From contig VXOF01000039.1 in assembly GCA_009840285.1 (NCBI GenBank), forward strand, positions 1 through 58,980: a DNA stretch of 58,980 nt. The letters run 5' to 3'. The notes under the pieces are model-generated. The model saw only the letters and a program-made list of their open reading frames with translations, made no database searches and was not told the DNA's origin. The translations under genes and the position numbers were made by a program. This DNA comes from Nitrospira sp. SB0662_bin_26 (lineage in GTDB: Bacteria > Nitrospirota > Nitrospiria > Nitrospirales > UBA8639). Below, piece after piece: positions 8,424-58,934 of this stretch (positions within the stretch are counted from its first letter, which is position 1; every line of letters starts with the position of its first letter).

Positions 8424-9008
8424 ATGGATAACTCAAGGCTGCGCGTCAAAGCCTCTGATTATGAGCTTGAGGCCGAAGGCTCACGGGATTTCGTGCGTGA
8501 GCAATATGAGGCGTTCAAGCGCCTCCTTGGTGGCGTACCTGGAAAATCGGCTGTGCCCGAATCAAGGGACCCCATTGAGCGTTCGCCATCACCTCAGGCC
8601 GCGGCCTCTCCCCTGCCCCGCGAGAAGACAGTTGCCCCAGCAAAGTCCGAGACCAAATCATTCCAGAAATTGTTGGTTTGGGATGACCGGACCCAACAGG
8701 TGAAGATCATGGTCCTCCCGGAGGGTCCGACGAAAGTGGCCGATACGGTCCTGTTGCTCTTGTTGGGTTATCGCGAACTTCGAGGGGCAAGTCAGGTTTC
8801 CGCATTGGATCTGAACCAGAGACTCAGATCCGCAGGTTTTGACGACCTCCGCCTGGACAGGGAAATGGCACCTTATCTGAAGGCCCGGCTGCTCCTGCGT
8901 TCCGGAGTCGGAAAAGGCAGCCGGTATCGACTAACCACCCGCGGCGTCAAGCAAGCCAACGAGCTGGTTCAAACCCTGGCTAGGCTTATTCCCGATCCCC
9001 TCCCCTGA
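8424..9008 (+). CDS. Unknown 194-aa protein with winged-helix-like C-terminus
   Basis: Not recognised as a named family. Residues 1-35 (LRVKASDYELEAEGSRDFVR) resemble short N-terminal modules of accessory-region proteins with an EGS-x-FV pattern. Residues 45-75 are a proline/serine-rich linker. The C-terminal ~90 residues (VADTVLLLLLGYRELRG..., then SRYRLTTRGVKQANELV) read like a winged helix, with the final strand-turn-strand typical of the wing. A DNA-binding or oligomerising role is possible. It has only a weak Shine-Dalgarno (AAGGG). It lies between tRNA-Phe and the convergent TrlF-like gene, in an accessory region. Confidence 0.5.
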   Translation: MDNSRLRVKASDYELEAEGSRDFVREQYEAFKRLLGGVPGKSAVPESRDPIERSPSPQAAASPLPREKTVAPAKSETKSFQKLLVWDDRTQQVKIMVLPEGPTKVADTVLLLLLGYRELRGASQVSALDLNQRLRSAGFDDLRLDREMAPYLKARLLLRSGVGKGSRYRLTTRGVKQANELVQTLARLIPDPLP

Positions 9009-9170
9009 TTTGCCTGGTGGTGATTTTCAATACGGTCTCCAACACCTGACGCATGTACAGAAGTGTCAAAAATAGGGGTGCTGCCAAGACGGCTGGCTTT
9101 TCCTTAATTGTAGCGGCCGTGTCTTATGCGGCTAGGAGAGGGCGGGAATTTGCGACTTCAAACGTAGTGG

Positions 9171-12017
9171 TTACGATTTAAAATTATATTTCTGTTCGCG
9201 CTTCCGAAAAGCCTCCTTCCCGCCTTCTAAAACTTCGTAAACGTGCTGGCGTATCCCTTTTCTATACAAGATGGCTTTTGATTGCGTTCCCGATGATTCA
9301 AAGGTGTTTTCTAGTGCTCCAGCAACATATTCAAATTTAAATTTTCTATTATCTCTTCCCTTTTCCTGCCCATCCTGATTTGCCACAATAACTTGTTCAG
9401 CATCTGCACCAACCACTAAATTGGGATTGTGTGTTACTATGATAATCTGTCTTTGATTTTTCTTACTTTTTATGAATGAAACGAGGTCATCATAAACCGA
9501 TCTGTTGTCTAAATCATCTTCTGGTTGATCCAAAAGTATAGGCCATTCTTCATTACTCAAATCAATAAGGAGACGTAAAAGCACAAGCCCTTTCTTACCA
9601 GGAGACATCTTGTCTAGGGGATCCCTTTTGTAGGAAATTTTGAAATCCAGATCAAAATAATCCTCTAGAATCTTTGCAACAGCATCTCTTGCTGGCCGGC
9701 CCTTAACAGTTTTGATTTTGCCATCAACGACGTCGGCAAAAAGCTTGTCAATAAAGTCCAGATGAATATCCACACTGAATTGATATTTATACTCGTCTTT
9801 CCACCCCACAGTGGTCCTGTTGCGTTTTATATCCTGTTTATTCAAAAACTGATTTATGACTTCCCCATTAAATTTTTCTTCGTTAAATCCAACCGAAACC
9901 CTTAAAGATATATCGTCAAACTTGTTTTCGTATTCCTTCAGTTCATTTCTAGCTGTATCGTAACCACTAAAGATTTCCTTATACGTTTCAAAAAGAATTG
10001 TTTTTTCAGCATTATAACGCTCCTTCTTCGCTTCAAGATTTATCTTTTCATGAGTAATTCTGTCTAGTTTCCTCTGCTCTTCCTCAATGGCAGTGTTCTT
10101 GTTTCTGAGTTCGCTTTGTAATTGGACTTTTTCCATAAACGGAGCAAGATTATTCTGAATCTCGTGTAATTTTTCTTGGTTGACTCTTTTTTTCATATCA
10201 ACAAAAGCAACCACCCGATCAATAGATGCTAGAATATCCGATTTTACCTGACCCAGCATGCCAAGCTCGTTCATGAATCGAGCCCTGACTTCCTGATCGC
10301 CCAAAGAGCGAGCTTCTTCATCACGTATTTTTTCAACACTTTCCAATTGCAAGGATACATTTCGTCTAAAACTATCTAGGGTTTTTCTGTCTTCGGCCAC
10401 ACTTGTGATATTTTTCCTTGTGTGGCTGGCCTCTCCCATTAGTCCTTCGTAAGCTGTTATCTCTTGTTGGGAAAGTCCAGACCTACTTTTTATTCCATCT
10501 GCTTCTGCTCGTAATTGAGCAGTGTACTTAGTGATGCCTTCTTGCTCTCCAAGCTGTCTGATCCTTTCTTCTACTTCCTCAATCTCCTGTTTGATCTGAT
10601 ATAAGTTTGTGACATGGGTCGGTATCAGCCTCGCCAATTCTCTGATCCTCGCAAGTTTATTTTCATAATTTTCTCGGACGATTTCATCTTGCAACAAAAC
10701 CTCTCGAATAAATTTATTTAACGTCTCTCGGCTCTCCAATTTGTTCTCAGACAGATTGTTAAGATAGTTTTGAGGTATGTACAATATTTTCCGTCGACTT
10801 GCGTCATTGTTCCCCTCAATGCTTCTAAGGTATGTACGCGCACCATCTGTCCAAGTCACTTCAAAATTGAAATCTAATGACTCATCAAAATTGTATTGTG
10901 CGGTGGTAGAAGAACTAGCAAGTCTTTCTTCTACGTCCCGTCTATCAATGGTTTTTGCCATGTAGTGCAACAGCAACGATTTTCCCGTTGATTTTCCACC
11001 GACTATGGCTGCCAAATTGTGATTCACTTCAATAGTGTCTGAAAGGAAATTATCCTCGCCGGTGTTATCAATAAATCGCACTTTATCAATGAGATAATAG
11101 GATTTTTTCGATTCCGGCTTTTCATACCCAAAGGCAACCCTGTCAGTTGGTTCGAAAATAATTTGCTTCAAACCTTCAAAAGTCGTATCCGCCTTTATCC
11201 AGCTAAAGCCATATCGGGCAGGATCCCTAACTTCTTTGTCCTCAAGTGTATATTTTTGACCAAGTTTATTTTGCAAATCATCAAAAGAGTGGCAATCAGA
11301 CGTAGAAATTACAGGCTTAGCCGTGGCTCTTCTATTTTTGTTTTCGTATCGGCTTTCATTCAAATAGTATTCTCTATTTCCCGGGTGTCCAAAAAATAGA
11401 TCACAGAAGTCATCAAAAAAATCAGACAACTCTCGTTTGATACAGACGTTAGAGTTAGCTCTATTGCTTCCCATGCCGCTTGCTACGCCCGCAATTAAAA
11501 ATGGACGCTCAGTTCCGAATGACTCCTTTAGTGTTTGCTCCAAGGCCTCTTTTGCAACGCTTACCGTGGCATAGCCGCCACAAGCCATAATATCTTCATC
11601 TGTACAATAAGCCACCCTATGATTAGTCTTTTTGTTCTTTAGTGGGAGGTGGGCGAGAAATGTTTTAATATCGTTGACGTCCCGCTCACTATCAAAAATG
11701 AGATGGCATTGAAGTTGATCTGAATCTAGATTCACGCTTATGTCCAGCCGAAGCTCAATGCAAGGGAAAAATCGTTTGCCATTTAATGCAGGAATGCTCT
11801 TTGCTTTGTGCTGAAATGTTTCATATCCCGCAACAGAAAAATAGTCTGTTACGCCAAAAACTGCGACATCCGAATCTATTATGTGTTCAAGAAATTGATT
11901 CCAAACATCGCCGCCATGTACGAGCGAATATTGATCGGCGTGTTTCGCGCCAGGAACATGGATTTGCAAATCCCATTTCCGCCAAGAGGACCCTTTTGTT
12001 ATACAATTTTCATTCAT
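9171..12017 (-). CDS. TrlF-type PHP domain / SMC-like ATPase
   Basis: A 948-aa protein with an N-terminal PHP phosphoesterase-like domain (WDLQIHVPG with Asp16 and His20, GVTDYFS at 55-61, STSDCHS at 238-244) joined to an ABC/SMC-type ATPase. Walker A GGKSTGKS is at 340-347, then a long coiled coil (about 430-700), then Walker B with LLDQPEDDLDNR (828-839) and an H-loop THNPN (862-866). This matches proteins annotated as TrlF family AAA-like ATPases, which occur in variable, restriction-modification-rich loci; a nucleic-acid-targeting defence role is likely but inferred. The gene is visibly richer in A and T than the chromosome around it, consistent with horizontal transfer. It stands alone, convergent with the 8424 gene. 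A GGAG lies 10 bases before the ATG. Confidence 0.75.
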   Translation of the reverse strand: MNENCITKGSSWRKWDLQIHVPGAKHADQYSLVHGGDVWNQFLEHIIDSDVAVFGVTDYFSVAGYETFQHKAKSIPALNGKRFFPCIELRLDISVNLDSDQLQCHLIFDSERDVNDIKTFLAHLPLKNKKTNHRVAYCTDEDIMACGGYATVSVAKEALEQTLKESFGTERPFLIAGVASGMGSNRANSNVCIKRELSDFFDDFCDLFFGHPGNREYYLNESRYENKNRRATAKPVISTSDCHSFDDLQNKLGQKYTLEDKEVRDPARYGFSWIKADTTFEGLKQIIFEPTDRVAFGYEKPESKKSYYLIDKVRFIDNTGEDNFLSDTIEVNHNLAAIVGGKSTGKSLLLHYMAKTIDRRDVEERLASSSTTAQYNFDESLDFNFEVTWTDGARTYLRSIEGNNDASRRKILYIPQNYLNNLSENKLESRETLNKFIREVLLQDEIVRENYENKLARIRELARLIPTHVTNLYQIKQEIEEVEERIRQLGEQEGITKYTAQLRAEADGIKSRSGLSQQEITAYEGLMGEASHTRKNITSVAEDRKTLDSFRRNVSLQLESVEKIRDEEARSLGDQEVRARFMNELGMLGQVKSDILASIDRVVAFVDMKKRVNQEKLHEIQNNLAPFMEKVQLQSELRNKNTAIEEEQRKLDRITHEKINLEAKKERYNAEKTILFETYKEIFSGYDTARNELKEYENKFDDISLRVSVGFNEEKFNGEVINQFLNKQDIKRNRTTVGWKDEYKYQFSVDIHLDFIDKLFADVVDGKIKTVKGRPARDAVAKILEDYFDLDFKISYKRDPLDKMSPGKKGLVLLRLLIDLSNEEWPILLDQPEDDLDNRSVYDDLVSFIKSKKNQRQIIIVTHNPNLVVGADAEQVIVANQDGQEKGRDNRKFKFEYVAGALENTFESSGTQSKAILYRKGIRQHVYEVLEGGKEAFRKREQKYNFKS

Positions 12018-35614: not shown

Positions 35615-36050
35615 CTAACTTCTCTCGGACTCGAGTGAATCCTGGCACCACACTCGGTTCGGGATCTGCACACGAATCTCTTCCTGTTTCCCGATTCCGG
35701 CCAGGCCCATCCGCTGGTCTGGCCCTCCCCTTGTCCTATCCGACCCGGTTTCCTTAGAATTGTGCGTATTGGTCGTTGACAAATCACGGCCTGCTTTTTC
35801 CCCTCCTTTGTAAGGACGGGAACTTTTTCCGAAGAGGGAAAAGTTGGGGAGGTAGAGGCTACGGCGAGGACTGTGAGATCCGTTGCACCATGAGGATACG
35901 ACTCTACCCCACCTAGCCTCCCCTTATAAAGGGGAGGGAAAGACCACGGTCGCCTCCCGCTCAGGCTGACCACTCTGTCAACAAATTGGTGAACACATAC
36001 AGGACTGACTGTTTCGGGTTTTTCCGTATCAATGACCGCAGGTTCCAACC
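35615..36050. repeat. 436-bp gap with two family C repeats
   Basis: A long family C element at 35797-35860 (TTCCCCTCCTTTGTAAGGAC, GGGAACTTTTTCCGAAGAGG, GAAAAGTTGGGGAGGTAGAG) is the reverse complement of the unit at 28940-28999. A short one is at 35904-35945 (TACCCCACCTAGCCTCCCCT then TATAAAGGGGAGGG). No gene is visible; a promoter for the 36051 gene was not identified. Confidence 0.75.
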
Positions 36051-37274
36051 ATGACCCAGGATGAAGCCCGTTCATATCTCAATTACCTGCTGACCTTGGG
36101 GCTTCGTCGCGAAGAGGCGTTTGGGCCGTTGGCTATTGCGTTTCTCCGTGAGCAGGACTTGACGGCCCTCGGCATCGCGCCGGAAGAGCAATTCAGCTTG
36201 ATCATCGCCACAACTCAGGCCATTGCCGCGGAGCCCAAACGCTATTCGCTTAAATTGGAACTGCTGCAAAAGGCCCGGCAACTGCTCACGACCACGCGGT
36301 TCTTCGACCCTGAATTGGACAAGGATCTGGAGCACGATATTCAGAAAACCACCGCCGAGTTGGCCATCTACAACGACGCCATGAAATCGTCGCGGAATGC
36401 GTCGATCGACCGTCACACGTTGATTGTCGAGACGGATCTTCCGGACTATTTTCTGGATCTGGCGCAAAAGCGAGCCGGAGCGTATTACCAGAATAAATAC
36501 CGGCTGACCAAGGAGGCCAAAACCGCGCAGCATTTTGGCGGCACGCCCAAGCGGTTCGAGCCGGACAACGAAGCCCTGCACAAGGAATTTCCCGGCGCCT
36601 GTGCTCCGTTTATGGCCGTCCGGACGAACGGTTTTCACATGATGCTTCCGTTCGACCTGAAAATCAGCCGGCGCCCCGATGATCCGCTGGATGCGGGCAT
36701 CCGGATTTTTTACGCGAAAATGGGGTATTCATATCCTCTCCGGTACGAAATGGGGAAACTGTGCAGTTATCATGATGGGCAGGTCTATGACATCGCCCTG
36801 GATGATCCAAATCTCTTATTCGTGTCGTTTTCCGGGATCAAGGATGCAGAGTTCCCATCCCAATCCGTACCGGCTTCCGGAGACGTACCCCCGGAATACG
36901 CCTACCCCCTTGCCGTACTCGAACATACGGGCAGTCTCGGTCCGTTCATTCAGGTCAGTTGTAATTTCAAAGTCTGGTTCGACGCTTCCAAGGTAGCCGT
37001 CCTGATCCAGGGCGCACCGGACCTGTACGAATACGGGCTTCAGGGCGGCGCGGGGCTGATGACCCGATCGTATGCCTCGGACAAGGTCCCGACTTATGCG
37101 GAAGCCCAATCACAACCTTGGCAGGAAGGGTTGAGTTTTAATTTCGTGAATCTCCACCTGACCTTGAGCCCGGGCACGGACACGGGCGTCATTCCGCACA
37201 GCACGCCGATTTTTACGGTGTTTCCCGTTCTGAGCAAACAAAGCTACAAGTTCGACCGGTTGGCGTCTCAGTAA
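36051..37274 (+). CDS. Unknown 407-aa protein; 3' end duplicated 3 kb downstream
   Basis: No family recognised. Cytosolic by appearance, without signal peptide or membrane segment. The first ~100 residues are helical (YLNYLLTLGLRREEAFGPLA, LELLQKARQLLTTT) and the rest looks like a beta-rich fold (LPFDLKISRRPDDPLDAG, VSFSGIKDAEFPSQSVPAS, VSCNFKVWFDASKVAVLIQG). The last 57 residues (SQPWQEGLSFNFVNLHLTLS to SYKFDRLASQ) are repeated, diverged, at 40129-40300, bracketing an AT-richer island. The 3' end of this gene therefore seems to be an insertion site. Composition matches the host chromosome. Confidence 0.65.
   Translation: MTQDEARSYLNYLLTLGLRREEAFGPLAIAFLREQDLTALGIAPEEQFSLIIATTQAIAAEPKRYSLKLELLQKARQLLTTTRFFDPELDKDLEHDIQKTTAELAIYNDAMKSSRNASIDRHTLIVETDLPDYFLDLAQKRAGAYYQNKYRLTKEAKTAQHFGGTPKRFEPDNEALHKEFPGACAPFMAVRTNGFHMMLPFDLKISRRPDDPLDAGIRIFYAKMGYSYPLRYEMGKLCSYHDGQVYDIALDDPNLLFVSFSGIKDAEFPSQSVPASGDVPPEYAYPLAVLEHTGSLGPFIQVSCNFKVWFDASKVAVLIQGAPDLYEYGLQGGAGLMTRSYASDKVPTYAEAQSQPWQEGLSFNFVNLHLTLSPGTDTGVIPHSTPIFTVFPVLSKQSYKFDRLASQ
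37103..37274 (+). repeat. Left copy of a 172-bp imperfect direct repeat
   Basis: From AGCCCAATCACAACCTTGGC to the stop codon of the 36051 gene. The right copy is at 40129-40300. By my alignment 158 of 172 positions match; the first 63 are identical and all 14 differences lie in the rest, with the last 13 bases most diverged. Both copies keep the reading frame and end in a stop codon. Confidence 0.92.
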
Positions 37275-37486
37275 TTGTATGCCTCTGAAAAACGCAATAG
37301 AATTCTAGATAGATAAAATACAATGTTAGTTGTACGAATTTTCAATTTGACTTTTCTGCTCTAGATTTTGGAGTCTATTCTTTTAGACCATAAAAGAGGT
37401 GAATCGGCCGAACAAACATTGAACAAGTTTGCATACGACGACCCGAGTAATGGAATTTTGTTCATCTATGCTGCTTTAATTCTAGT

Positions 37487-37606
37487 ATGAAATTTAAAGG
37501 CGTGACGAATTGCAAAGATTGCGGTATCAATGTAGAGATTAAAATTTTGCTTGAAGTCATTCCATTTACTTCAAATTTAAATCGGCAAATAAGTGACGTC
37601 GCCTAG
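37487..37606 (+). CDS. Possible 39-aa CxxC mini-protein
   Basis: ATG to TAG, 39 codons, starting MKFKGVTNCKDCGINVEIKI. It has a CxxC pair (Cys9, Cys12) like half a zinc ribbon. It ends 11 bp before the first island gene and is in the same orientation. There is no strong Shine-Dalgarno, so it may be chance; position and the CxxC motif are the only support. Confidence 0.3.
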   Translation: MKFKGVTNCKDCGINVEIKILLEVIPFTSNLNRQISDVA

Positions 37607-37617
37607 ATTAAAAAGTA

Positions 37618-38346
37618 ATGTCTGATAAACGGCTTGCTGGAGGTTTCCGTATGAGGATAGACCCCGAAATAGCCGGGGTCTCCCTTGTAATACTTGGTCA
37701 TTTCAATCCTTTAATTTTTACACATTCATGGTTTGGTTGGAATGAACTTCTTTCAAAAGAAATTGTAGATAACGCAAATGTGCAAATTGCGCACCCGCAG
37801 ATCACTAAATTCAGTGCAGACTGGCTTAACCTACAAGTGGAGCCAGAACGTTTCATGATTGAAACGACCCAAGCTCCTTATGTCCGTCTCCAGGATCTGG
37901 CTGTACGCATTTTTCGCAATCACCTTCCCCATACCCCCCTTAAAGCTTTAGGAATTAACCGAAATGTCCACTTTTGCGTAAAAAGATTTGAAGATCGAGA
38001 TAGGCTTGGTAGAGCGATCGCACCCGTGGAGCCTTGGGGAGAATGGGGCAAGAAACTTGAACCGGATGGGGAGCACGGCGGTATGACCACCCTCAACATG
38101 AGACAGCTAAACCCAGAAGGCAGGCCTCCAGGAGGACAAATAAATGTGACGGTGGAACCATCTATAAGAGTCGGCGATGGCCGACTTGGGGTATACGTTC
38201 GGATAAATGACCACTATGCTATCGAGAGCACTAACAGTAAAACTGCAACGCAAGAAATTGTTAAGCTGCTAGAAGACAACTTCGCTAAATCTCTTAAACG
38301 TGCAGATAATATCATCGATCACCTTATGTTGCTGACGGAGAAATAA
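37618..38346 (+). CDS. Island gene 1: unknown 242-aa protein
   Basis: No named family recognised with certainty. Conserved-looking blocks are VSLVILGHFNPLIFTHSWF (residues 20-38), FSADWLNLQVEPERFMIETT, LKALGINRNVHF (about 117-128), and a C-terminal VGVYVRINDHYAI-like strand ahead of a helix (EIVKLLEDNFAKSLKRADNI). The layout (LGIN near the middle, beta-rich, about 250 aa) faintly recalls TIGR04255-type sporadic proteins. No catalytic signature is seen. The stop is 2 bp before the next ATG, so genes 1 and 2 are an operon. AT-rich relative to the chromosome. Confidence 0.6.
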   Translation: MSDKRLAGGFRMRIDPEIAGVSLVILGHFNPLIFTHSWFGWNELLSKEIVDNANVQIAHPQITKFSADWLNLQVEPERFMIETTQAPYVRLQDLAVRIFRNHLPHTPLKALGINRNVHFCVKRFEDRDRLGRAIAPVEPWGEWGKKLEPDGEHGGMTTLNMRQLNPEGRPPGGQINVTVEPSIRVGDGRLGVYVRINDHYAIESTNSKTATQEIVKLLEDNFAKSLKRADNIIDHLMLLTEK

Positions 38347-38348
38347 GT

Positions 38349-38984
38349 ATGTCAGAGACTTCATTCGCTCTAGCAGATAATCGCCTTCCAGATTTATCTC
38401 ACTACAATGAAAACTCACTCGCCTACGATCCCTTTAACTATAGATCACGCAAATATAGGATACGCAAAGCATACGCGGAGCGTTTTGCGGTGACACAGCA
38501 GCAATCCCAAGACGCCTGTGATACAGAAAGCACAGAAACCAGAATTGCCGACCTCAGAACGCTAAATGTAATTTCGCCTGATATTGATGAAATCGTTGCT
38601 GATATTGAATCGATAATTTCATTACCAAAACTATCGCAAGTATCACAGGCCCAAGCAACCTTTCATGCGCTACAGGAGTGGGAAGGGTATGTCCTTAAGA
38701 GAGGAGAGCGTGATTTTACCGCACGGTTATTGGACTTGACTGCTGGTTCAACCCAGGAGGAAGAAGAAGTCACAATTCCTTTGGCTGAAATTTCAGAAGA
38801 CGATCTAAACCGACTGCGTCAGGGCAGCGTTTTTCGGTGGGTAATCGGCTATGAACGTTCCGTGAGCAAAGCCAAACGTCGTATTTCCCAAATCGTCTTC
38901 CGCGACCTTCCTGCCATGACCATGCAGGACCTATCCGAGGGTGAGAAGTGGGCAAAAAAAATCGGTCGGTCGATCGCAGGCTGA
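38349..38984 (+). CDS. Island gene 2: unknown 211-aa protein
   Basis: No family recognised. The N-terminus is rich in Tyr/Asn (LSHYNENSLAYDPFNYRSRK). Residues 70-130 form predicted helices, and the C-terminal third has FRWVIGYERSVSKAKRRISQ then IVFRDLPAMTMQDLSEGEKW, which looks like a conserved strand-helix module ending in a helical tail. It lies 2 bp after gene 1, and its last 37 bases overlap gene 3, so all three are translationally coupled. No signal peptide. Probably a partner of genes 1 and 3. Confidence 0.6.
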   Translation: MSETSFALADNRLPDLSHYNENSLAYDPFNYRSRKYRIRKAYAERFAVTQQQSQDACDTESTETRIADLRTLNVISPDIDEIVADIESIISLPKLSQVSQAQATFHALQEWEGYVLKRGERDFTARLLDLTAGSTQEEEEVTIPLAEISEDDLNRLRQGSVFRWVIGYERSVSKAKRRISQIVFRDLPAMTMQDLSEGEKWAKKIGRSIAG

Positions 38985-40063
38985 CAGCCGTTAAAGCACC
39001 ACCATTACACGATCAAATTGAGGTGTGTCTCTTCGGTCCGGGTTACGGAGAATGCATACTCCTTCATGTTGGTAATGGGAATTGGGTAATCATAGATTCG
39101 TGTCTCAATGCGGAGTCTCACCCAGCGGCGACGGCTTATCTACATGGTTTGGGCTTAGATCCAGCTGGAGTTGTTCGTTTCGTGGTTGCGACTCATTGGC
39201 ATGACGATCATATCCGAGGCTTGGGAAAACTAATCGAGATTTGCGACAAAGCGACTTTCTGCTGTGCAAGTGCTCTGTGCAAGAACGAATTCCTCACAGC
39301 TGTGGGTGCCATGGCGTCCGGCCATGTGTCAACGGCTGGCTCTGGAATGCAGGAATTTTACAAGGTGCTGTCGTTACTTGCAGAGAGATCCTCTGTACCC
39401 AAATTTGCTTTAGCTAACCGTCTGATATTTGATGAAGGTGGTTGCAAGATTTGGTCCCTTTCTCCATCTGATGAAGAATTCACAGCTTTCTTGCAAGAGA
39501 TAGGAGGCCTTTTGCCAAAGAAACACGAAACAAAAAGACGTATTTCTGCTTTGACTCCGAATGAGGTAGCCGTGGTGCTACTGGTCAAAATCGACGATTT
39601 AGCGATTCTCCTTGGTGCCGACCTCGAAAGCCCAGGTTGGTTGAAGATACTCGATGCTAACGAACGGCCGAACTACAAAGCCTCTGTTTTCAAAATTCCG
39701 CACCATGGTTCCCAAGATGCACATGAGGAAAGAGTATGGAATGAGATGTTATATAGTACTCCAATTGCAACCCTCACTCCCTGGCAAAGAGGCGGGAAAA
39801 GATTGCCGACAAGGGGCGATATTAAACGCATTCTCTCGTTTACTCCAAGAGCTTATACAACTGCATCCCACAGCATTTATACTCGAAAACCCGTACGACG
39901 CAGAAGTAGCGAAGTAGAAAGCATGATCAAAGAAACCGGCGTAAAGTTTCGACGCATACGTCCATCCTCCGGAATCATCCGTCTGCGCAAGAAGCGCAGT
40001 TCACGAAACGGCTGGGACGTCCAATTGTTGGGATCAGCTTGTAAATTGGCAGACTCCTCGTGA
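38948..40063 (+). CDS. Island gene 3: MBL-fold (ComEC-like) hydrolase
   Basis: A 371-aa metallo-beta-lactamase-fold protein with a GTG start overlapping gene 2 by 37 bp; GAGGGTGAG lies upstream. Motifs run in order: GYGECILLHVGNGNWVIIDS (31-50), metal motif THWHDDHIRG, later the LLGADLES strand with its Asp and then KIPHHGSQDAHEE. These are typical of ComEC/Rec2-like and other nuclease-type MBL proteins. Unlike ComEC it has no membrane domain. A phosphodiesterase acting on nucleic acid or nucleotides is plausible; the pairing with two unknown genes in an island suggests a defence effector, which is inference. Confidence 0.75.
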   Translation: MGKKNRSVDRRLTAVKAPPLHDQIEVCLFGPGYGECILLHVGNGNWVIIDSCLNAESHPAATAYLHGLGLDPAGVVRFVVATHWHDDHIRGLGKLIEICDKATFCCASALCKNEFLTAVGAMASGHVSTAGSGMQEFYKVLSLLAERSSVPKFALANRLIFDEGGCKIWSLSPSDEEFTAFLQEIGGLLPKKHETKRRISALTPNEVAVVLLVKIDDLAILLGADLESPGWLKILDANERPNYKASVFKIPHHGSQDAHEERVWNEMLYSTPIATLTPWQRGGKRLPTRGDIKRILSFTPRAYTTASHSIYTRKPVRRRSSEVESMIKETGVKFRRIRPSSGIIRLRKKRSSRNGWDVQLLGSACKLADSS

Positions 40064-40128
40064 GTGGGGAAAGCTAGCGTGGTCGCAAATTCAGCAGACA
40101 AAGACCAGAAAAGAGATCGAACCAGCCG

Positions 40129-40300
40129 AGCCCAATCACAACCTTGGCAGGAAGGGTTGAGTTTTAATTTCGTGAATCTCCACCTGACCTTAAGCCCGGG
40201 CACGGACACGGGCTTCATTCCACACAGCACGCCGATCTTTACGGTGTTTCCCGTCTTGAGCCGACAAAGTTACAAGTTCGACCGGTTGGCTACTGAATAG
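40129..40300 (+). pseudogene. Right repeat copy: 3' fragment of a diverged 36051-type gene
   Basis: Encodes SQPWQEGLSFNFVNLHLTLS through SRQSYKFDRLATE and a TAG stop, matching the last 57 residues of the 36051 product with V-to-F, K-to-R and SQ-to-TE changes. It has no start codon of its own and is joined to unrelated island DNA, so it is a gene tail left by recombination or carried in with the island. Confidence 0.85.
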
Positions 40301-40309
40301 AGATGAAAG

Positions 40310-41050
40310 TTAAGTGCCCCGCCGAGAACCATATAGCTCTCCTTTAAAGGACCCGTCCCTGATAACGCCTGCTTCAGTGTATACTAGCCAATCGACGGAA
40401 TACTTTACTTGGCCGATGTCTCTGTATTCGATTCGGCATTTGAGCGGCGGAATGTCAGGAATGTCGAACGTCCTAGGCTCACCGGTCTTGCGATGCTCGT
40501 CATCATTTCCACTGATGGCTAATTGATAGAAATAAGAAACTAGCGATATATAAACCAAGGGAACTATTAAACCAGTACGAGTTTGATTGGTAGACGCAGG
40601 CAAAACGAAGTCGATATGTGATTCGCCCTGCCATTTGACTACCCATTGATTGTCTGATGTTTTGAATGACAACAAATTATTTCTGTATTCAAAATACGCA
40701 GGCGTCAGAGATACTTGTGCAAGGCGATTCACTGAGGAAACAAACTCGTGAATTGGGAAATTCCAGACGACTCTTATTTCCCTCGCCGCGCCCAGTCCAA
40801 CATTGACTAGTGGAATTGAGAAGAGCTTAATGGCAACATCATTCGTCTCATCATTATTCCCATCATTAGTCCAGTGGGGAATGCCGCCTGGGGTTTCGAA
40901 TATTTTGGCTTGTATTGGTGTACGGACAAGAACAAGATCTGGTCTGTAAGAAGCCATTCTTTGTTTGTAGTTTTGTCGCACTGCCATGAAAGCTGCCACA
41001 GCCGACATGCATGCGGCAATGCTAGTAACCAGTGAGATTAAATCTGTCAT
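40310..41050 (-). CDS. Unknown N-terminally anchored 246-aa protein
   Basis: A single N-terminal hydrophobic segment (DLISLVTSIAACMSAVAAFM) is followed by a short basic stretch (RQNYKQRMASYRP) and a beta-rich soluble domain (EIRVVWNFPIHEF, NQWVVKWQGESHIDFVLPA, PLKCRIEYRDIGQVKYSVDW). It resembles many accessory 'membrane anchor plus sandwich' proteins of unknown function. Its stop is 10 bp from the end of the right repeat, convergent with the island. It is AT-richer than housekeeping genes, so may belong to the same accessory locus. Confidence 0.6.
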   Translation of the reverse strand: MTDLISLVTSIAACMSAVAAFMAVRQNYKQRMASYRPDLVLVRTPIQAKIFETPGGIPHWTNDGNNDETNDVAIKLFSIPLVNVGLGAAREIRVVWNFPIHEFVSSVNRLAQVSLTPAYFEYRNNLLSFKTSDNQWVVKWQGESHIDFVLPASTNQTRTGLIVPLVYISLVSYFYQLAISGNDDEHRKTGEPRTFDIPDIPPLKCRIEYRDIGQVKYSVDWLVYTEAGVIRDGSFKGELYGSRRGT

Positions 41051-41589
41051 CTCTGAACCATCTAGGAAGCAGTCTGGTATAAGATACCCTTTGTGGTTTG
41101 ATGATCTAGCGCGTTTGGATATTCAGTGCGACTAAATATTCGACATTAACATTGCGAGCATATCCTCCAGCATTTCCCTAAACGACTAGAACGAACTGCG
41201 TTATCGGTTCCGAGACCGTTGCCCTCAATTATTACCATAGATGATAGGTTCAGGCCAGTAAGAAGTAAGGAGTAAGTTCTTATTCAGGGGCGTGTACACA
41301 TGCAAACGTAGTCAAATGAATCGGCTGTGATCCAGGTGACCGAAGCTTCGTAAAAAATGCGTGTGCCCCGTTGATACGGAATTAAGTCTTATGCTAGGAT
41401 TCTTGGCACCCAATGGATGACGACGGTCCCAGACGACATTTCCGTCACCAGCGCACTAATCTCTACCCGCCTTATTCGTTTTTCTTTGCCCATTTCCCAG
41501 CACGTGATCGGTATGAAGCAAAGGGGTTGATTTCTCTATGCTTTCCGGCCTTTCTGCCCCCTGTCAGGGGTTTGCTCTGATTTGATCCC
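41051..41589. other. 539-bp gap without recognisable gene
   Basis: I see no RNA gene, no family A-D repeat and no convincing ORF. A short hairpin (CCCCCTGTCAGGGG, 41557-41570) lies 20 bp before the 41590 gene. The segment may be degraded sequence at the edge of the accessory locus. Confidence 0.4.
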
Positions 41590-42870
41590 ATGGAATACGT
41601 CGCCATAGTGATTTGCCTGGTGTTCTCCGGGTTGTTTTCGGGAGCGGAAATTGCGTTCTTTTCCCTTCCCGAGACCAAGTTGCAAACCATGGCAGAGGAC
41701 GGCCGCCGGGCAGCAAAGCTGGCGCTCGCCCTCAGACAGAATCCCCAGCGACTGCTTTCGACCATCCTGATCGGAAACAACGTCGTCAACCTGACGGCCG
41801 CCGCGTTGATTTCCATCGTCACGTTTGAACATTTCGGGTCCGAAGCGGTGGCGATTGCGACGGGCGGGTTGACGGTTTTTGTGCTGATCTTCGGGGAAAT
41901 CGTTCCCAAAACCCTGTGCGCCAAATACGCACCCTCCGCCGTCCAATATTTCGCGTATATGATTTATTGGATGGAAAAGCTCTTTGCTCCAGCTCTCTTC
42001 CTGTTGGAACCGCTGATTCTGAAATTGACCGGAGGACGGGGACTGGCTGTCCCGTTCGTGACGAAAGAAGAACTGAAGATCATGATCGAGGCGGGAGGGA
42101 AAGCCGGGGTGCTCGAGACCGAAAAGGTCGAGATGATCAAGAACCTCTTCGAGTTCACCGAGCTCACGGCTAGGGACGTGATGACCCCGAGAATCGATAC
42201 GGTCGTCATGGATAGCAACTTTACGTTGGACGAAGCCAAAGAAGACCTGTTCAATACCAAACATTCACGGATTCCCGTCTATGAGGGCATCCGCGACAAC
42301 ATCACGGGTACTCTTTACCGGACGCATGCCTTGATCGAATTGGCCCAAGGAAATCGGACCAGCAAACTGAAAGAGTTGGCCCTCCCGCCGCTCTTCATTC
42401 CCATTTCCAAACCCGTCGGCGATCTGTTGAAGCAATTTCAGGAAGAGAAACGCCACCTTGCGATCGTCGTCAATGAATTCGGCGGGGTTATGGGCATCGT
42501 CACCACGGAAGATCTGTTGGAGGAAGTCGTGGGTGATATTCTCGACGAGACGGACGTGAGCGAAGAACTGATCAAACGGACCGGCAAAAACGAGATTTTG
42601 GTAAGCGGTCGAACGGAAGTTCGCAAAATCAATGAATTTCTGAAGGTGGCCTTGGATAAAGACGAAGACGTTATCTTCTATACCATCAGCGGGCTTATCC
42701 AGCAGCGCCTCGGCCATATCCCCGCGGTCGGGGAGGAACTCCGAGTGGCCGGTTGTCTGTTGACCATCCGGGAAGCCGATAACCGGTCCATCAAAAGCGT
42801 CCAGATCCTCAAACAGGAGAACGTGTCCCAAGAAGAACCGGAACCCGCCCAAGCCGGTTCCCCTACGTAA
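41590..42870 (+). CDS. CNNM/CorC-family (HlyC-like) membrane protein
   Basis: A 426-aa protein with an N-terminal DUF21/CNNM membrane domain (about residues 1-190, four hydrophobic segments; [16 protein letters not shown] is its signature), then two CBS domains (about 205-330; [34 protein letters not shown]) and a C-terminal CorC/HlyC domain. Bacterial homologues take part in magnesium or cobalt homeostasis; older names call them haemolysins. It seems monocistronic. Confidence 0.9.
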
Positions 42871-50800: not shown

Positions 50801-51382
50801 ATGAATAGATCGCTGACAGGAACACTCCTCGGAATCGCCTTCTTTGTGCTTCTCGTCTTTCCCCTCTTTGCAAAGTCTGGCGGACAGTCCGCCGGCGGCG
50901 TTCCTCCACAAGTCGTGGCTGATTACATTCACGCCATCATTCAAGCCGATCGCACACTCTATACAACCCACGTGGTCGAACGGATGGAAAGACATCAAGT
51001 CGTGACTTCCCAGGAATATTGGAAACAGACCAAGTCGTTACCCCTTCCCGCTCAAATGTTGTTGCTGTCGGGGTTACACGTCGACCAACAGGGATTGGGG
51101 CTCCAATTCCGGTTAGCCAGCCTGACCCCCATATATGAGAAAAACGGACCGACCACGGATTTTGAGAAAGCGGGACTGGCGGCCGTGCTAAAAGATCCCA
51201 GCCGACCCTTTACCGGTGTCATCCAACGGGGCACGCAAAAATTTTTTAAAGCGATCTATGCCGACCATGCCGTATCCGTGTCCTGCATCAACTGCCACAA
51301 CGGGCATCTACTCACGTATAAAAAGGATTACAAGCTGGGTGACGTCATGGGCGGAATCGTGATTTCCTTTCCCATTGAATGA
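50801..51382 (+). CDS. DUF3365-type c-type haem protein
   Basis: A 193-aa exported protein: signal peptide MNRSLTGTLLGIAFFVLLVF, then a DUF3365 (Tll0287-like) domain with one haem motif, Cys162-Ile-Asn-Cys165-His166 (SCINCHNGHL). VVADYIHAIIQADRTLYTTH and VIQRGTQKFFKAIYADHAVS are family-like. Tll0287-like proteins are periplasmic, possibly redox- or gas-sensing. AAAGGAGG precedes the ATG. It probably acts alone, convergent with the PRMT-like gene. Confidence 0.82.
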   Translation: MNRSLTGTLLGIAFFVLLVFPLFAKSGGQSAGGVPPQVVADYIHAIIQADRTLYTTHVVERMERHQVVTSQEYWKQTKSLPLPAQMLLLSGLHVDQQGLGLQFRLASLTPIYEKNGPTTDFEKAGLAAVLKDPSRPFTGVIQRGTQKFFKAIYADHAVSVSCINCHNGHLLTYKKDYKLGDVMGGIVISFPIE

Positions 51383-51393
51383 AGGGTTGGCCG

Positions 51394-52347
51394 TTAACCG
51401 GCCAACGAAGTGGGGCGTTCTTGAGCCGAGGACAGGGACCCCTTGGTGCTGGAATGTTCAAACCGCACCCCGTTCACTGAAACGTTCCAATGCCAGTATT
51501 CACCATTTTGGCTTGAAGACATCTCCACGTCGATACGGTTGCCGCGATCCACGGAAACGGGACGGTCAATGGGGAAAAAGGCCAGCCCCCAATGCGAGGC
51601 TTTATCCCGGGGGCCATTGGAGATAGAAAGACCGGGAATCAATTCGGCGTTGAACCAACCCGCCAGTCCGTGAAGCCAACCCTGCCGTCTTGCATGAATG
51701 GTGAAGCCGGCCTTGACTTCCGTCTGAGTCGTTTCCCCGAATTCGATTTCCTGTACGCGCAGAGGATCACCCAGAAACGTTCCTTCGTGCAGTTTCAACG
51801 GATGAAAGTTGTTCACCGTCAAATGGCGAACGGGTGAAAAATCGAACCCCTGACACCGGTTCACCCAAAAATCGACCACGTGCTCATAAAACTGAGGCAG
51901 TTCGACGGGAACGAGGAACAAGTCTACGCCGTGGGGAACGAGTCTTCCGCCTTTTTTCAGGAAGCGCTGCCGGGCATCGGTCAGGGATCCGAGAATCCCT
52001 TCTTCAAACCCAAACGTGCCCATGGTCTCCGTCACGATAACGTCGGCCGGTTCAGGCAACTCCACGTTGAATGATGAGGCGTTGTAAAACGTGATCCGAT
52101 CTTGAAATCCGTTCTTCGCCGCCACAAGTTCGGCAATGTTGATGACGGGTTCACTCTCGATGGCATACACGCGGCGGGCGCCGGCACGGCACGCGAAAAA
52201 CGAGAGAATACCCGATCCGCAGCCCACGTCCACCACCACGTCGCCCGGTTTGACGACCCGGGAAATCGCTTGACTGTAGGCACCCGTCCGCGTCTCATCA
52301 ACCAACATCGACAGGTGATAATTGATGAAGTCGGTGTATTTCGTCAT
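51394..52347 (-). CDS. PRMT-like class I SAM methyltransferase
   Basis: A 317-aa protein with SAM motif I VDVGCGSG (39-46), acidic loop YAIESEP (61-67), and a double-E-like loop TETMGTFGFEE (Glu107 and Glu116 at the spacing of the arginine-methyltransferase pair). The C-terminal half has PRMT-like beta-barrel strands (LVPHGVDLFLVPVE, VKAGFTIHARRQGWLHGLAG, GNRIDVEMSSSQNGEYWHWN). The eukaryotic SEWMG motif is replaced by TETMG. It may methylate protein arginine or another guanidine/amine; the substrate is not known. Confidence 0.78.
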   Translation of the reverse strand: MTKYTDFINYHLSMLVDETRTGAYSQAISRVVKPGDVVVDVGCGSGILSFFACRAGARRVYAIESEPVINIAELVAAKNGFQDRITFYNASSFNVELPEPADVIVTETMGTFGFEEGILGSLTDARQRFLKKGGRLVPHGVDLFLVPVELPQFYEHVVDFWVNRCQGFDFSPVRHLTVNNFHPLKLHEGTFLGDPLRVQEIEFGETTQTEVKAGFTIHARRQGWLHGLAGWFNAELIPGLSISNGPRDKASHWGLAFFPIDRPVSVDRGNRIDVEMSSSQNGEYWHWNVSVNGVRFEHSSTKGSLSSAQERPTSLAG

Positions 52348-54857: not shown

Positions 54858-54999
54858 TCAGCTTCTGTAGTGGACGTGGTCACGACGATTTCAGATGCGT
54901 TGGCCTACCTGTTCAATTCATGGCACAATTGCCTTGCTGAAATAAAGAGTATAGCATGCTCTTCAGAGAGAATCTTTAGGCACGCCTGACGTTGCACGC

Positions 55000-55722
55000 A
55001 TGCCTTTTACACGATCCCGTGACAGTACCGATATGGATGATCTCGCTCTTCTGAAAACCGTTCCTCTTCTCTCCTTTCTTCCCGATGATACACTCGAAGA
55101 CATCAGGACCAAGCTGGTCGAGCAGCAGTATGAGAAAGGCGAGTTCATTTTTCGGGAAGGCGAAAAGGCCGAATGGTTTTATTTCCTGAAACAGGGAGCG
55201 ATCAAATGTTTGAAATACGCGCCCCAAGGGGATGAACTGATTCTCAAGATCCTGCTGCCCGGGGAGATGTTCTGCTGCGAATCGGTCACCTTTGAGGGAG
55301 ATACGGTCCATCCCGGCAATGCGCAGTCCATGGGGCCAACCACCGTTCTGAAACTCAACCGTTCGATTTATTTCGAATGCCTCCGCGAACACCCGCCCGT
55401 GACGATGCAAGTCATCAGTTACCTGGGGAACCGCCTCAAGGAATCGCAGGACCTCGCCAAGAGCCTTGCCCTCGATACGGCCGAGACCCGGGTAGCGGCG
55501 TTATTGCTGCGACTGGCCGAGAAACTCGGTGAGAAGGAACCTGAAGGCGTCTACATCGGCATCCAACTCATGCGTCAGGAAATTGCACATATGATCGCCA
55601 TCACTGAAGAGACCACTGTGCGCATTTTGACCCGCATGAAAGAACAGGGCATTCTCTCTGCCCAGTCCGGCAAAAAATTGGTCATTTCCGACATGGACGC
55701 TTTGAGAAAACTGGCTTCTTGA
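55000..55722 (+). CDS. Crp/Fnr-family transcription regulator
   Basis: A 240-aa regulator with an N-terminal cyclic-nucleotide-binding-fold domain (about 15-140; YEKGEFIFREGEKAEWFYFL) and a C-terminal Crp HTH (LMRQEIAHMIAITEETTVRI). The recognition-helix pattern EETTVR keeps the Glu and Arg of FNR/CRP. There is no N-terminal cysteine cluster, so oxygen sensing through 4Fe-4S is unlikely; NO-responsive (NnrR/DNR-like) sensing is possible. ATG 55033 is an alternative start. A perfect FNR-type site and nirK follow directly. Confidence 0.88.
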   Translation: MPFTRSRDSTDMDDLALLKTVPLLSFLPDDTLEDIRTKLVEQQYEKGEFIFREGEKAEWFYFLKQGAIKCLKYAPQGDELILKILLPGEMFCCESVTFEGDTVHPGNAQSMGPTTVLKLNRSIYFECLREHPPVTMQVISYLGNRLKESQDLAKSLALDTAETRVAALLLRLAEKLGEKEPEGVYIGIQLMRQEIAHMIAITEETTVRILTRMKEQGILSAQSGKKLVISDMDALRKLAS

Positions 55723-55783
55723 ATGCCTGAGATTTTCTTAAGCTCCATCCTCTCTTCATCTCCTGATTTCTTCCTGCAAAAAG

Positions 55784-55797
55784 TTGATCCATATCAA
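55784..55797. promoter_or_regulatory. Perfect FNR/DNR-type palindrome upstream of nirK
   Basis: TTGATCCATATCAA matches the FNR-family consensus TTGAT-N4-ATCAA at every defined position. It lies between the Crp/Fnr gene and nirK, 160 bp before the nirK ATG. A weak ATTGTT/TACCAT -10 about 30 bp on would place the site near -42 to -47, as for class II activation. The TTTTTTT after it could alternatively make an AT-rich terminator for the regulator gene. Confidence 0.75.
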
Positions 55798-55956
55798 TTT
55801 TTTTCACCGGCAAAACTGCCATTGTTACCATCCGCTCCGGGTGGATGCGCCGTCCTTTGCCTTCCGTTGTTGCAGCGCGAGGCATTCATCTCGAAAGCGG
55901 GAAAGATGAATTCATAAGGTAGACCCCATTATTCATCACGTGAAGGAGGTTGTCAG

Positions 55957-56958
55957 ATGCAGCAGGAGTTTTCTCGCAAAGCAAAGATTCGTAGCGCATG
56001 GATCGTTGCCCTGTGCCTGGCCGGCTGTCCGGTCCTGGCGTCCGCGGAAACCATCAAGGCCCAACTTTCGACGGCACCGAACGTTCCTCCCCCCATTACC
56101 CGTACCAAGCCGGCAACGGTCGTGGTCAACATGGAAGCGAAGGAATACGTCGGCACGATCGCCGAAGGGAAGCAATATAAATTCTGGAGTTTCAACGGCA
56201 CGGTGCCCGGTCCCATGATCCGGGTTCGGGTGGGCGATACCGTGCAAATCCATTTGACCAACAGCAAGGACAGCAGCGAAAGTCACAATATCGACTTCCA
56301 CGCCGTCAACGGGCCGGGTGGCGGCGCCGTAAAACTGAATACCGAACCCGGAGAAAAGACCGGCCTGAGTTTCAAGGCGATCAATCCCGGGCTCTACGTG
56401 TACCATTGCGCCACCGCATCGCCGTCGATTCCGGCACACATTGCCAACGGGATGTACGGCATGGTCCTGGTGGAACCGGAGGGCGGCCTGCCTCCCGTGG
56501 ACAAGGAATTCTATCTCCTCCAGAGCGATTTCTACACCAAGGAGGGCAAGGGCGGCGTCCTGGAATACGATGAGGAAAAAGGGTTGGCCGAACACCCCAC
56601 CTACGTAGTCTTTAACGGGATGAAGGGTTCTCTGCTGAAGAATCCGCTCAAGGCCAAAGTCGGGGACAAAATTCGGATTTTTTTCGGCAATGCCGGTCCA
56701 AACCTGGTGTCGTCGTGGCACATCATCGGGGAAATCTTCGACAAGGTCTGGTCGGAAGGTTCGCTCACGACTCCACCCCTGGAAAACGTGCAGACCACAC
56801 TGGTGCCGGCTGCGGGATCTTCCGTCGTGGAATTTACCGTCGAAGTCCCGGGCACGTATATCTCGGTGGACCATTCGATCTTTCGCATCGCGAAAGGCGC
56901 ATTGGGTCTGCTGAAGGTGGAAGGGAAAAAGAACCCCGACATCTACAAGGGCATGTAA
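55957..56958 (+). CDS. nirK: Copper-containing nitrite reductase (NO-forming)
   Basis: A 333-aa periplasmic two-cupredoxin enzyme that reduces nitrite to nitric oxide. A signal peptide ends near VLASA. All copper ligands are present: type 1 His110, Cys151, His161, Met166; type 2 His115, His150, His306 (SHNIDFHAV; YHCATASPSIPAHIANGM; VDHSIFR). The catalytic Asp113 and His255 are also present. AAGGAGG precedes the ATG. The FNR-type site and the upstream Crp/Fnr gene suggest control by nitrogen oxide or redox state. In nitrite oxidisers NirK may act in nitrogen-oxide balance rather than full denitrification. Confidence 0.94.
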   Translation: MQQEFSRKAKIRSAWIVALCLAGCPVLASAETIKAQLSTAPNVPPPITRTKPATVVVNMEAKEYVGTIAEGKQYKFWSFNGTVPGPMIRVRVGDTVQIHLTNSKDSSESHNIDFHAVNGPGGGAVKLNTEPGEKTGLSFKAINPGLYVYHCATASPSIPAHIANGMYGMVLVEPEGGLPPVDKEFYLLQSDFYTKEGKGGVLEYDEEKGLAEHPTYVVFNGMKGSLLKNPLKAKVGDKIRIFFGNAGPNLVSSWHIIGEIFDKVWSEGSLTTPPLENVQTTLVPAAGSSVVEFTVEVPGTYISVDHSIFRIAKGALGLLKVEGKKNPDIYKGM

Positions 56959-57911: not shown

Positions 57912-58934
57912 ATGAAAAAGCCTTGTTATTCAATAAGTTTTGACCGCTTCCGCCAATTGGCCCGAATGGGGAACCTGGTACCGGTGTATCGTGAAATCCT
58001 GGCTGATCGGGAAACGCCAGTCAGCGCATTTTCGAAAATCAATTCCGGCGACACGGCTTTCCTGTTTGAAAGTATCGAAGGCGGCGAGAGCTGGGCCCGG
58101 TATTCCTTTCTTGGCAGCGGAGCCACACAAGTGCTGTGGGAAAAGGACGGCATCCTCTACGTCCAAAAAGGGCGGAAAACCGAAACCCTTCCCTTAGGAG
58201 ACAATCCGTTAGACCATATCCGGACGATCCTGTCGGAGTTTCAACCGGTGCACGTGCCCGACCTCCCGCGCTTTGTCGGCGGAGCTGTCGGCTATCTTGG
58301 GTATGACGTGGTGCGATTTTTTGAACCGATCCCCGAGTATCCCAAGGATTCGGCCCGGCTACCTCTATTCGCCTTCTTCGTCACGGATACGCTTTTGATC
58401 TTCGACAACGTGCGACATACGATCAAAGTTGTGGCCAATGCGCATATTGCCTCCTCGAAGAAATCGGACGTCAGGTCCGCCTACGTGGATGCGACGACCC
58501 GCATCGAAAAAATGATCGCGAAGCTCAAGACATCCTTGCGGTCCCGTCCTGCAACCGCGCGCAAGCACGTTCCCCGCTTCACCTCCAATATGACCCAGCC
58601 CACCTTTGAAAAGATGGTGATGCGGACCAAGGAGTATATTCAGGCCGGCGATATCGTGCAGGCAGTGGTCTCCCAAAGATGGCAAACCAGGATTCGGAGG
58701 TCGCCCTTGGAAATCTATCGCGCATTGCGGGTGATCAATCCGTCACCATACATGTTCTATCTCCGGGTAGCGGGAGTTGAATTGGTCGGATCCTCACCGG
58801 AAATCCTGGTCCGATGTGAAGAGGGCCAGGTCGTCGTCCGACCGATCGCCGGAACCCGAAAACGCGGGGATACGGTTGCGGAAGACCAGGCGCTGGCCGA
58901 TGAACTGTTGGCCGATACAAAGGAACGCGCCTAA
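57912..58934 (+). CDS. trpE: Anthranilate synthase component I, interrupted by an in-frame stop
   Basis: Converts chorismate plus ammonia to anthranilate, the first tryptophan-specific step. The ATG at 57912 begins MKKPCYSISFDRFRQLARMG. The N-terminal domain and much of the chorismate-binding domain are present: GAVGYLGYDVVRFFE, GDIVQAVVSQRWQ, NPSPYMFYLR, GSSPEILVR and RPIAGTRKRG. The frame hits TAA at 58932-58934 (ERA-stop), exactly where family members have ERAEHVMLVDLGRND; beyond the stop the same frame continues HVMLVALGRNDVGSV. So the gene is intact apart from one nonsense codon, or there is a sequence error near the window edge. No Shine-Dalgarno is obvious. Confidence 0.88.
   Translation: MKKPCYSISFDRFRQLARMGNLVPVYREILADRETPVSAFSKINSGDTAFLFESIEGGESWARYSFLGSGATQVLWEKDGILYVQKGRKTETLPLGDNPLDHIRTILSEFQPVHVPDLPRFVGGAVGYLGYDVVRFFEPIPEYPKDSARLPLFAFFVTDTLLIFDNVRHTIKVVANAHIASSKKSDVRSAYVDATTRIEKMIAKLKTSLRSRPATARKHVPRFTSNMTQPTFEKMVMRTKEYIQAGDIVQAVVSQRWQTRIRRSPLEIYRALRVINPSPYMFYLRVAGVELVGSSPEILVRCEEGQVVVRPIAGTRKRGDTVAEDQALADELLADTKERA

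Follow-up and report, generated by a model that had tools for sequence, protein, structure and literature searches.

DNR of Pseudomonas aeruginosa is a nitric oxide (NO)-responsive activator of denitrification genes, with nitrite reductase among its targets. It belongs to the operator class TTGAT-N4-ATCAA (PMC1274295), and its residue His139 is reported to be heme-linked (PMC8510549). FNR of Escherichia coli shares this operator consensus, possesses a [4Fe-4S] cluster held by Cys20, Cys23, Cys29, and Cys122, and reads DNA with the Glu and Arg of an ETxSR recognition motif. For FNR-activated class II promoters, a site at -41.5 and a hexamer at -12/-7 are documented (PMC7349173).

NnrR of the alphaproteobacteria, in which Tyr93 is conserved, is also a Crp/Fnr regulator of nirK, and its operator is ctTTGcg-N4-cgCAAag (PMC1274295). 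CooA of Rhodospirillum rubrum (1ft9) binds heme through Cys75, the ferric ligand (PMC6955866), and His77.

In the genus Nitrospira, an Fnr-type gene upstream of nirK was described in several genomes in 2017, and control of nirK by its product was proposed (PMC5596200). That pair is very probably the one described here. A homologue in a Nitrospira MAG, which may or may not be the present regulator, has also been assigned to NnrR, and an NnrR weight matrix was used to search for its sites (PMC8510549).

The regulator-nirK locus

The locus lies near the end of the window, i.e., the whole 58,980-bp stretch of DNA that was analyzed. A regulator gene is followed by a 234-bp gap and then by nirK, whose product converts nitrite to NO (Table 1). 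NirK scores 325.5 bits against TIGR02376, above the curated cut-off of 296.3. Among named relatives, the nearest are MAGs of the Nitrospirales, including 'Nitrospira sp. bin75' (MPMZ01) and the JAHRAK, OX638327, and JAJEJG records. The GTDB genus bin75 is mostly of marine-sponge origin (PMC11812461), and the window most likely belongs to a member of this genus.

Table 1. Coordinates of the features of the regulator-nirK locus, in window positions.
Feature	Position	Strand	Remarks
Sigma70-like promoter of regulator gene, TTGCCT-N17-TAGCAT	54929..54957	+	homologue precedes nirK in regulator-less congeners
Crp/Fnr-family regulator, 240 aa	55000..55722	+	Pfam cNMP_binding + HTH_Crp_2
16-bp operator form GTTGATCCATATCAAT	55783-55798		
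Putative operator TTGATCCATATCAA	55784..55797	.	within regulator-nirK gap; kept in regulator-bearing congeners
Predicted extended -10 of nirK, TG-c-CATTGT	55817..55825	+	TG at -15/-14; no -35 hexamer
Predicted nirK transcription start region	55830..55834	+	inferred from geometry in PMC7349173; 41.5 bp from box center = 55832
Shine-Dalgarno AAGGAGGT of nirK	55943..55950	+	conserved in congeners
nirK, copper-containing nitrite reductase, 333 aa	55957..56958	+	TIGR02376

Several other features of the window are of separate interest. The trpE gene (57885-) has an in-frame TAA at 58932-58934 inside the conserved KERA-HVMLVALGRND motif, and the frame stays open and homologous beyond it; this is a nonsense mutation or a sequence error near the contig end. 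The reverse strand at 51394-52347 encodes a protein arginine methyltransferase-like protein with a PRMT_C oligomerization domain (PF22528, 1.4e-15), which is unusual in a bacterium. A secreted Tll0287-like protein (PF11845) with a CINCH motif, possibly heme-binding, is encoded at 50801-51382. The G+C content is 0.405 at 9001-12000 and about 0.48 at 36001-42000, compared with about 0.56 elsewhere, and these may be acquired segments.

The regulator and its recognition helix

The regulator is a member of the Crp/Fnr superfamily, with both domains over the Pfam cut-offs (PF00027, 58.3 bits; PF13545, 59 bits). No other HTH_Crp_2 protein in its genome exceeds the cut-off. The best PDB sequence match is DNR (3dkw), at about 25% identity. 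DNR is also the best structural match: in an AlphaFold model of the regulator (mean pLDDT 84), the sensor domain is nearest to 2z69 (Z 17.9, rmsd 4.1 over 144) and 3dkw (Z 16.9). Because the DNA-binding domain is oriented differently, TM values over the full length are poor.

The recognition helix reads E203-E204-T-T-V207-R208. The earlier note had described a Glu/Arg recognition pattern, and Glu204 and Arg208 are indeed present as in FNR; the motif is nevertheless not a full ETxSR, as Val207 takes the place of Ser. Five proteins of the window genus have Val at this position and the others have Ile, Ser, or Thr. A one-residue code linking residue 207 to the outer base of the operator was considered and rejected. 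Val goes with T, but Ser goes mostly with A and in other cases with a T/A mix.

The presence of a cNMP_binding domain could indicate a cAMP-binding CRP, with nirK under carbon or cAMP control. This is very improbable. The region of the cAMP-contacting, phosphate-binding CRP cassette Glu72/Arg82/Ser83 is replaced by FCCE...HPGN in the regulator (FCCE...HPG[NCTS]A in the alignment), and the helix lacks the RETVGR of CRP.

The operator and promoter of nirK

The sequence TTGATCCATATCAA is the sole palindrome in the window that matches TTGAT-N4-ATCAA without a mismatch, and thus falls in the FNR/DNR operator class. The earlier note had located a complete consensus match at exactly this position, in the gap between the regulator and nirK, and both points are confirmed. 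By itself the box is weak evidence, because 3-8 perfect boxes per genome occur in 12 congeners, regulator-plus and regulator-minus alike, which is a background level. Its own genome of 2.2 Mb has four. At that rate, a perfect box within the 234-bp gap is an event of about 5e-4.

This background is what would favor a chance match, with the regulator and nirK as mere neighbors. Such an explanation is hardly credible, as the position of the box, the promoter geometry, and the co-loss of box and regulator contradict it. Conservation of position in the five regulator-bearing congeners and absence from the six without the regulator argue strongly against a chance origin.

A genome scan for the same box, proposed in the earlier note, gives the nirK site and three more. 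Of these three further perfect sites, one overlaps the aroE start and the others are in coding sequence, of porin and of adk. We therefore rejected a wider regulon defined by perfect TTGAT-N4-ATCAA boxes, also because perfect-box counts are equal between regulator-plus and regulator-minus genomes. One congener (G005) has a second site identical to its nirK box, which is inside a TetR-like gene and was likewise rejected as a regulon member.

The predicted -10 begins 29.5 bp from the box center, the exact class II spacing. The hexamer CATTGT is weak (3/6), and congeners have CATAGT, CATAAT, or GACAAT. Among the relatives, a -10 match of at least 4/6 is found at 28.5-30.5 bp from the center in 95% of cases, compared with 2-46% at other distances. 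Matches to the -35 are mostly 2/6, and the hexamer is nearly always missing. In silico, the locus thus has the class II arrangement of a site at about -41.5, a -10, and a dispensable -35. A start far from -41.5 had been named beforehand as the finding that would refute the proposal; the box instead stands at class II distance from the extended -10, as predicted in silico.

It is highly probable that the box is the class II activation operator of the nirK promoter, bound by the adjacent regulator. A regulator dimer would bind TTGATCCATATCAA, centered 41.5 bp before the predicted start, and would recruit RNA polymerase to an extended -10 lacking a usable -35. In such an arrangement, expression of nirK would require an active regulator. 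The regulator gene has an ordinary promoter of its own and no matching box, so steady synthesis is expected, with the signal acting on the protein. Autoregulation through a second box was rejected, since no box occurs at 54858-54999 within two mismatches.

Repression from sites of this kind is known for some Crp/Fnr proteins. Here the box adjoins the -35 position, and the regulator could in principle cover the promoter of nirK and release it on a signal. Repression is improbable, however, because in 95% of relatives the -10 is spaced exactly as for a class II activator, and the almost complete lack of a -35 hexamer would leave the promoter weak without an activator. In addition, genomes that lost the regulator have a full sigma70-like nirK promoter instead of the one with the box, as expected after a loss of activation rather than of repression.

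Conservation and joint loss within the genus

The regulator is present in five genomes of the genus at 87-100% identity. All five have a perfect box between the regulator and nirK, followed by an ungapped stretch to an extended -10 at class II spacing, and indels are found in the flanks on both sides of that stretch. The box center is substituted among congeners (CCAT, CTAC, CCAC), and both half-sites are kept. In one congener (G004, L036), the nirK leader is lengthened by a repeat-like insertion of roughly 150-160 bp, located after the -10 region and before the Shine-Dalgarno sequence.

Six congeners encode an orthologous nirK (86-91% identity) and no regulator. In none of these six is a perfect box found within 450 bp upstream of nirK. 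In a tree of nirK DNA, five of them (G001, G008, G011, G012, G013) group as a single clade (99/99) within the regulator-bearing congeners, and the sixth (G009) is missing the regulator separately from this clade. The topology comes from the DNA tree, as the protein tree leaves it unresolved. In the five-genome clade, nirK stands behind the former promoter of the regulator, which reads TTGTCT-N17-TATCAT in three of the genomes. Most simply, a single deletion would have removed regulator and operator together and fused nirK to the promoter of the regulator.

An operator family across Nitrospirales

Most of the 80 loci identified by profile (73, counting the window) have a regulator orthologue of 40-47% identity upstream of nirK. 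The loci include those of N. moscoviensis (L090) and Ca. N. defluvii (L094). The regulator stands before two quite different NirK types, one sharing about 60% and the other about 35% identity with the window NirK. A palindrome score of at least 16 is reached in 64/69 regulator-nirK gaps, and dinucleotide shuffles give a mean of 2.7 and a maximum of 8.

Nearly all gaps contain an operator of the form xTGAy-N4-rTCAx, which is not the NnrR operator. The window genus has TTGAT half-sites, most others have ATGAT or CATGAY, and a few combine TTGAT with ATCAT. The commonest operator across the order is CATGAY-N4-RTCATG. Most Nitrospirales orthologues differ from DNR in using ATGAY rather than TTGAT half-sites.

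An operator with a -10 is found upstream of nirK in 25/25 Nitrospirales genomes that have the regulator and in 1/26 that do not. The scoring rule and cut-off were set after part of the same data had been seen and relatedness was not corrected for, so the Fisher p of 1e-13 is only indicative and not a true probability. In one regulator-negative genome (G015), a marginal match lies well upstream of nirK, at -336. In three genomes (G014, G019, G024), the site overlaps the end of the regulator gene and is hence invisible in the intergenic gap alone. The claim in the earlier note that the box belongs to the regulator and controls nirK gains from this co-occurrence, and from the regulator being the sole Crp-type HTH over the cut-off in its genome.

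The operator also precedes nirK where the two genes stand apart, at distances of 1.7 kb, 2.3 kb, or about 7 kb or on different contigs (G023, G026, G033, G027). In Ca. N. defluvii, a second nirK (L189, G054:C1) that is unlinked to the regulator has the operator CATGACAATTGTCATA and a -10 at class II spacing. These separated and unlinked copies are decisive against mere adjacency, as the site follows nirK. No operator was found before the other second nirK copies (G020, G024, G026, G041). Three genomes without this regulator have a tandem nirK in which the first copy contains one in-frame stop (G047:C8:58581-60651, TGA; G050:C1:832115-834119, TAA; G057:C182:3432-5445, TAG).

Joint presence and absence across about 50 related genomes makes a working regulator-nirK control circuit very likely. 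The site, its geometry, its conservation, the co-occurrence, and the joint loss are observed; we infer binding, activation rather than repression, and the signal.

The cysteine triad and the candidate signal

Cysteines of the regulator are at positions 70, 92, 93, and 127 only, and none is N-terminal. The earlier note had taken a lack of Fe-S cysteines as a hint of NO sensing. The four cluster cysteines of FNR are indeed absent, but three other cysteines were overlooked that are invariant. Cys70, Cys92, Cys93, His104, Pro105, Gly106, Glu204, Thr205, and Arg208 are present in 70/70 aligned orthologues, and the conserved motif is KC...GDLFCC[ED]...HPG[CTSN]A. The His-Pro pair is common to FNR and need not have a special role. 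Because FCC was among the patterns of the locus search, that search itself partly accounts for the invariance of Cys92 and Cys93; Cys70 was in no search pattern. All 25 orthologues obtained from unbiased whole-genome protein searches have the same three cysteines. We take the triad to lie at the effector pocket, from an alignment to CRP and the known CRP structure. Most likely, sensing would occur through this pocket of the cNMP-like domain with the participation of Cys70, Cys92, and Cys93.

The regulator resembles CooA in that Cys92 aligns with Cys75 (GEMFC/GDMFC). It differs in having Glu94 at the position of His77, which is Glu or Asp in 70/70 orthologues, and in its recognition helix, which is unlike the RQTTST of CooA. 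No CO genes were seen near the regulator. No such triad appears in the DNR sequence of the alignment, and the heme-linked histidine of DNR corresponds to Lys147, with His in 3/70 relatives.

From these residues, we propose with moderate confidence that the triad holds a cofactor or metal and that the signal is NO, O2, or redox state. The nature of the cofactor is a question within class II activation and does not compete with it. A heme or Fe-S protein that responds to O2 or NO, as opposed to a cofactor-free thiol-redox or metal (e.g., copper) sensor, has slightly less than an even chance. The invariance of the three cysteines, the match of Cys92 to the Fe(III)-heme ligand of CooA in GDMFC (PMC6955866), and a fold closest to the NO-responsive DNR (Z 17.9) favor it. 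The residues at the CooA His77 and DNR His139 positions weigh against it, and three neighboring cysteines would serve just as well for metal binding or a disulfide. That the cofactor is heme or Fe-S and responds to NO or redox state is a guess, and our confidence in it is far below that in the promoter model.

No protein of the COX1/NorB family (PF00115; haem-copper oxidase or NO reductase) is found at E <= 0.001 in the whole genome (G000). NO made by NirK would accordingly not be removed by such an enzyme.

One joint reading of these findings is offered tentatively, at rather less than even odds. The regulator may represent a new sensory branch of the Crp/Fnr superfamily that is widespread in Nitrospirales and carries a cofactor (heme-thiolate, Fe-S, or another metal) on a Cys triad in the effector pocket, switching NO production by nirK. 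Its operator would have drifted between TTGAT and ATGAY within the order, and regulator and operator would have been lost as a unit in part of the window genus.

Significance for Nitrospira

The adjacency of the regulator and nirK is already published. In the 2017 paper, which notes this adjacency and proposes control, no description of the operator, promoter geometry, co-loss, or Cys triad was seen. No earlier description of these four was found in a non-exhaustive search of the literature, and they appear to be new. The order-wide extent of the operator family, with its drifting half-sites, likewise appears new, as do the joint character of the regulator and operator loss and the invariance of the triad.

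The physiological role of NirK in nitrite-oxidizing Nitrospira 'remains to be determined' (PMC6606698), and both its role and its control are open. With a defined operator, geometry, and regulator, control can be addressed in a heterologous reporter. Species with and without the regulator provide a natural comparison. The operator rule could replace NnrR or FNR weight matrices in regulon prediction for Nitrospira.
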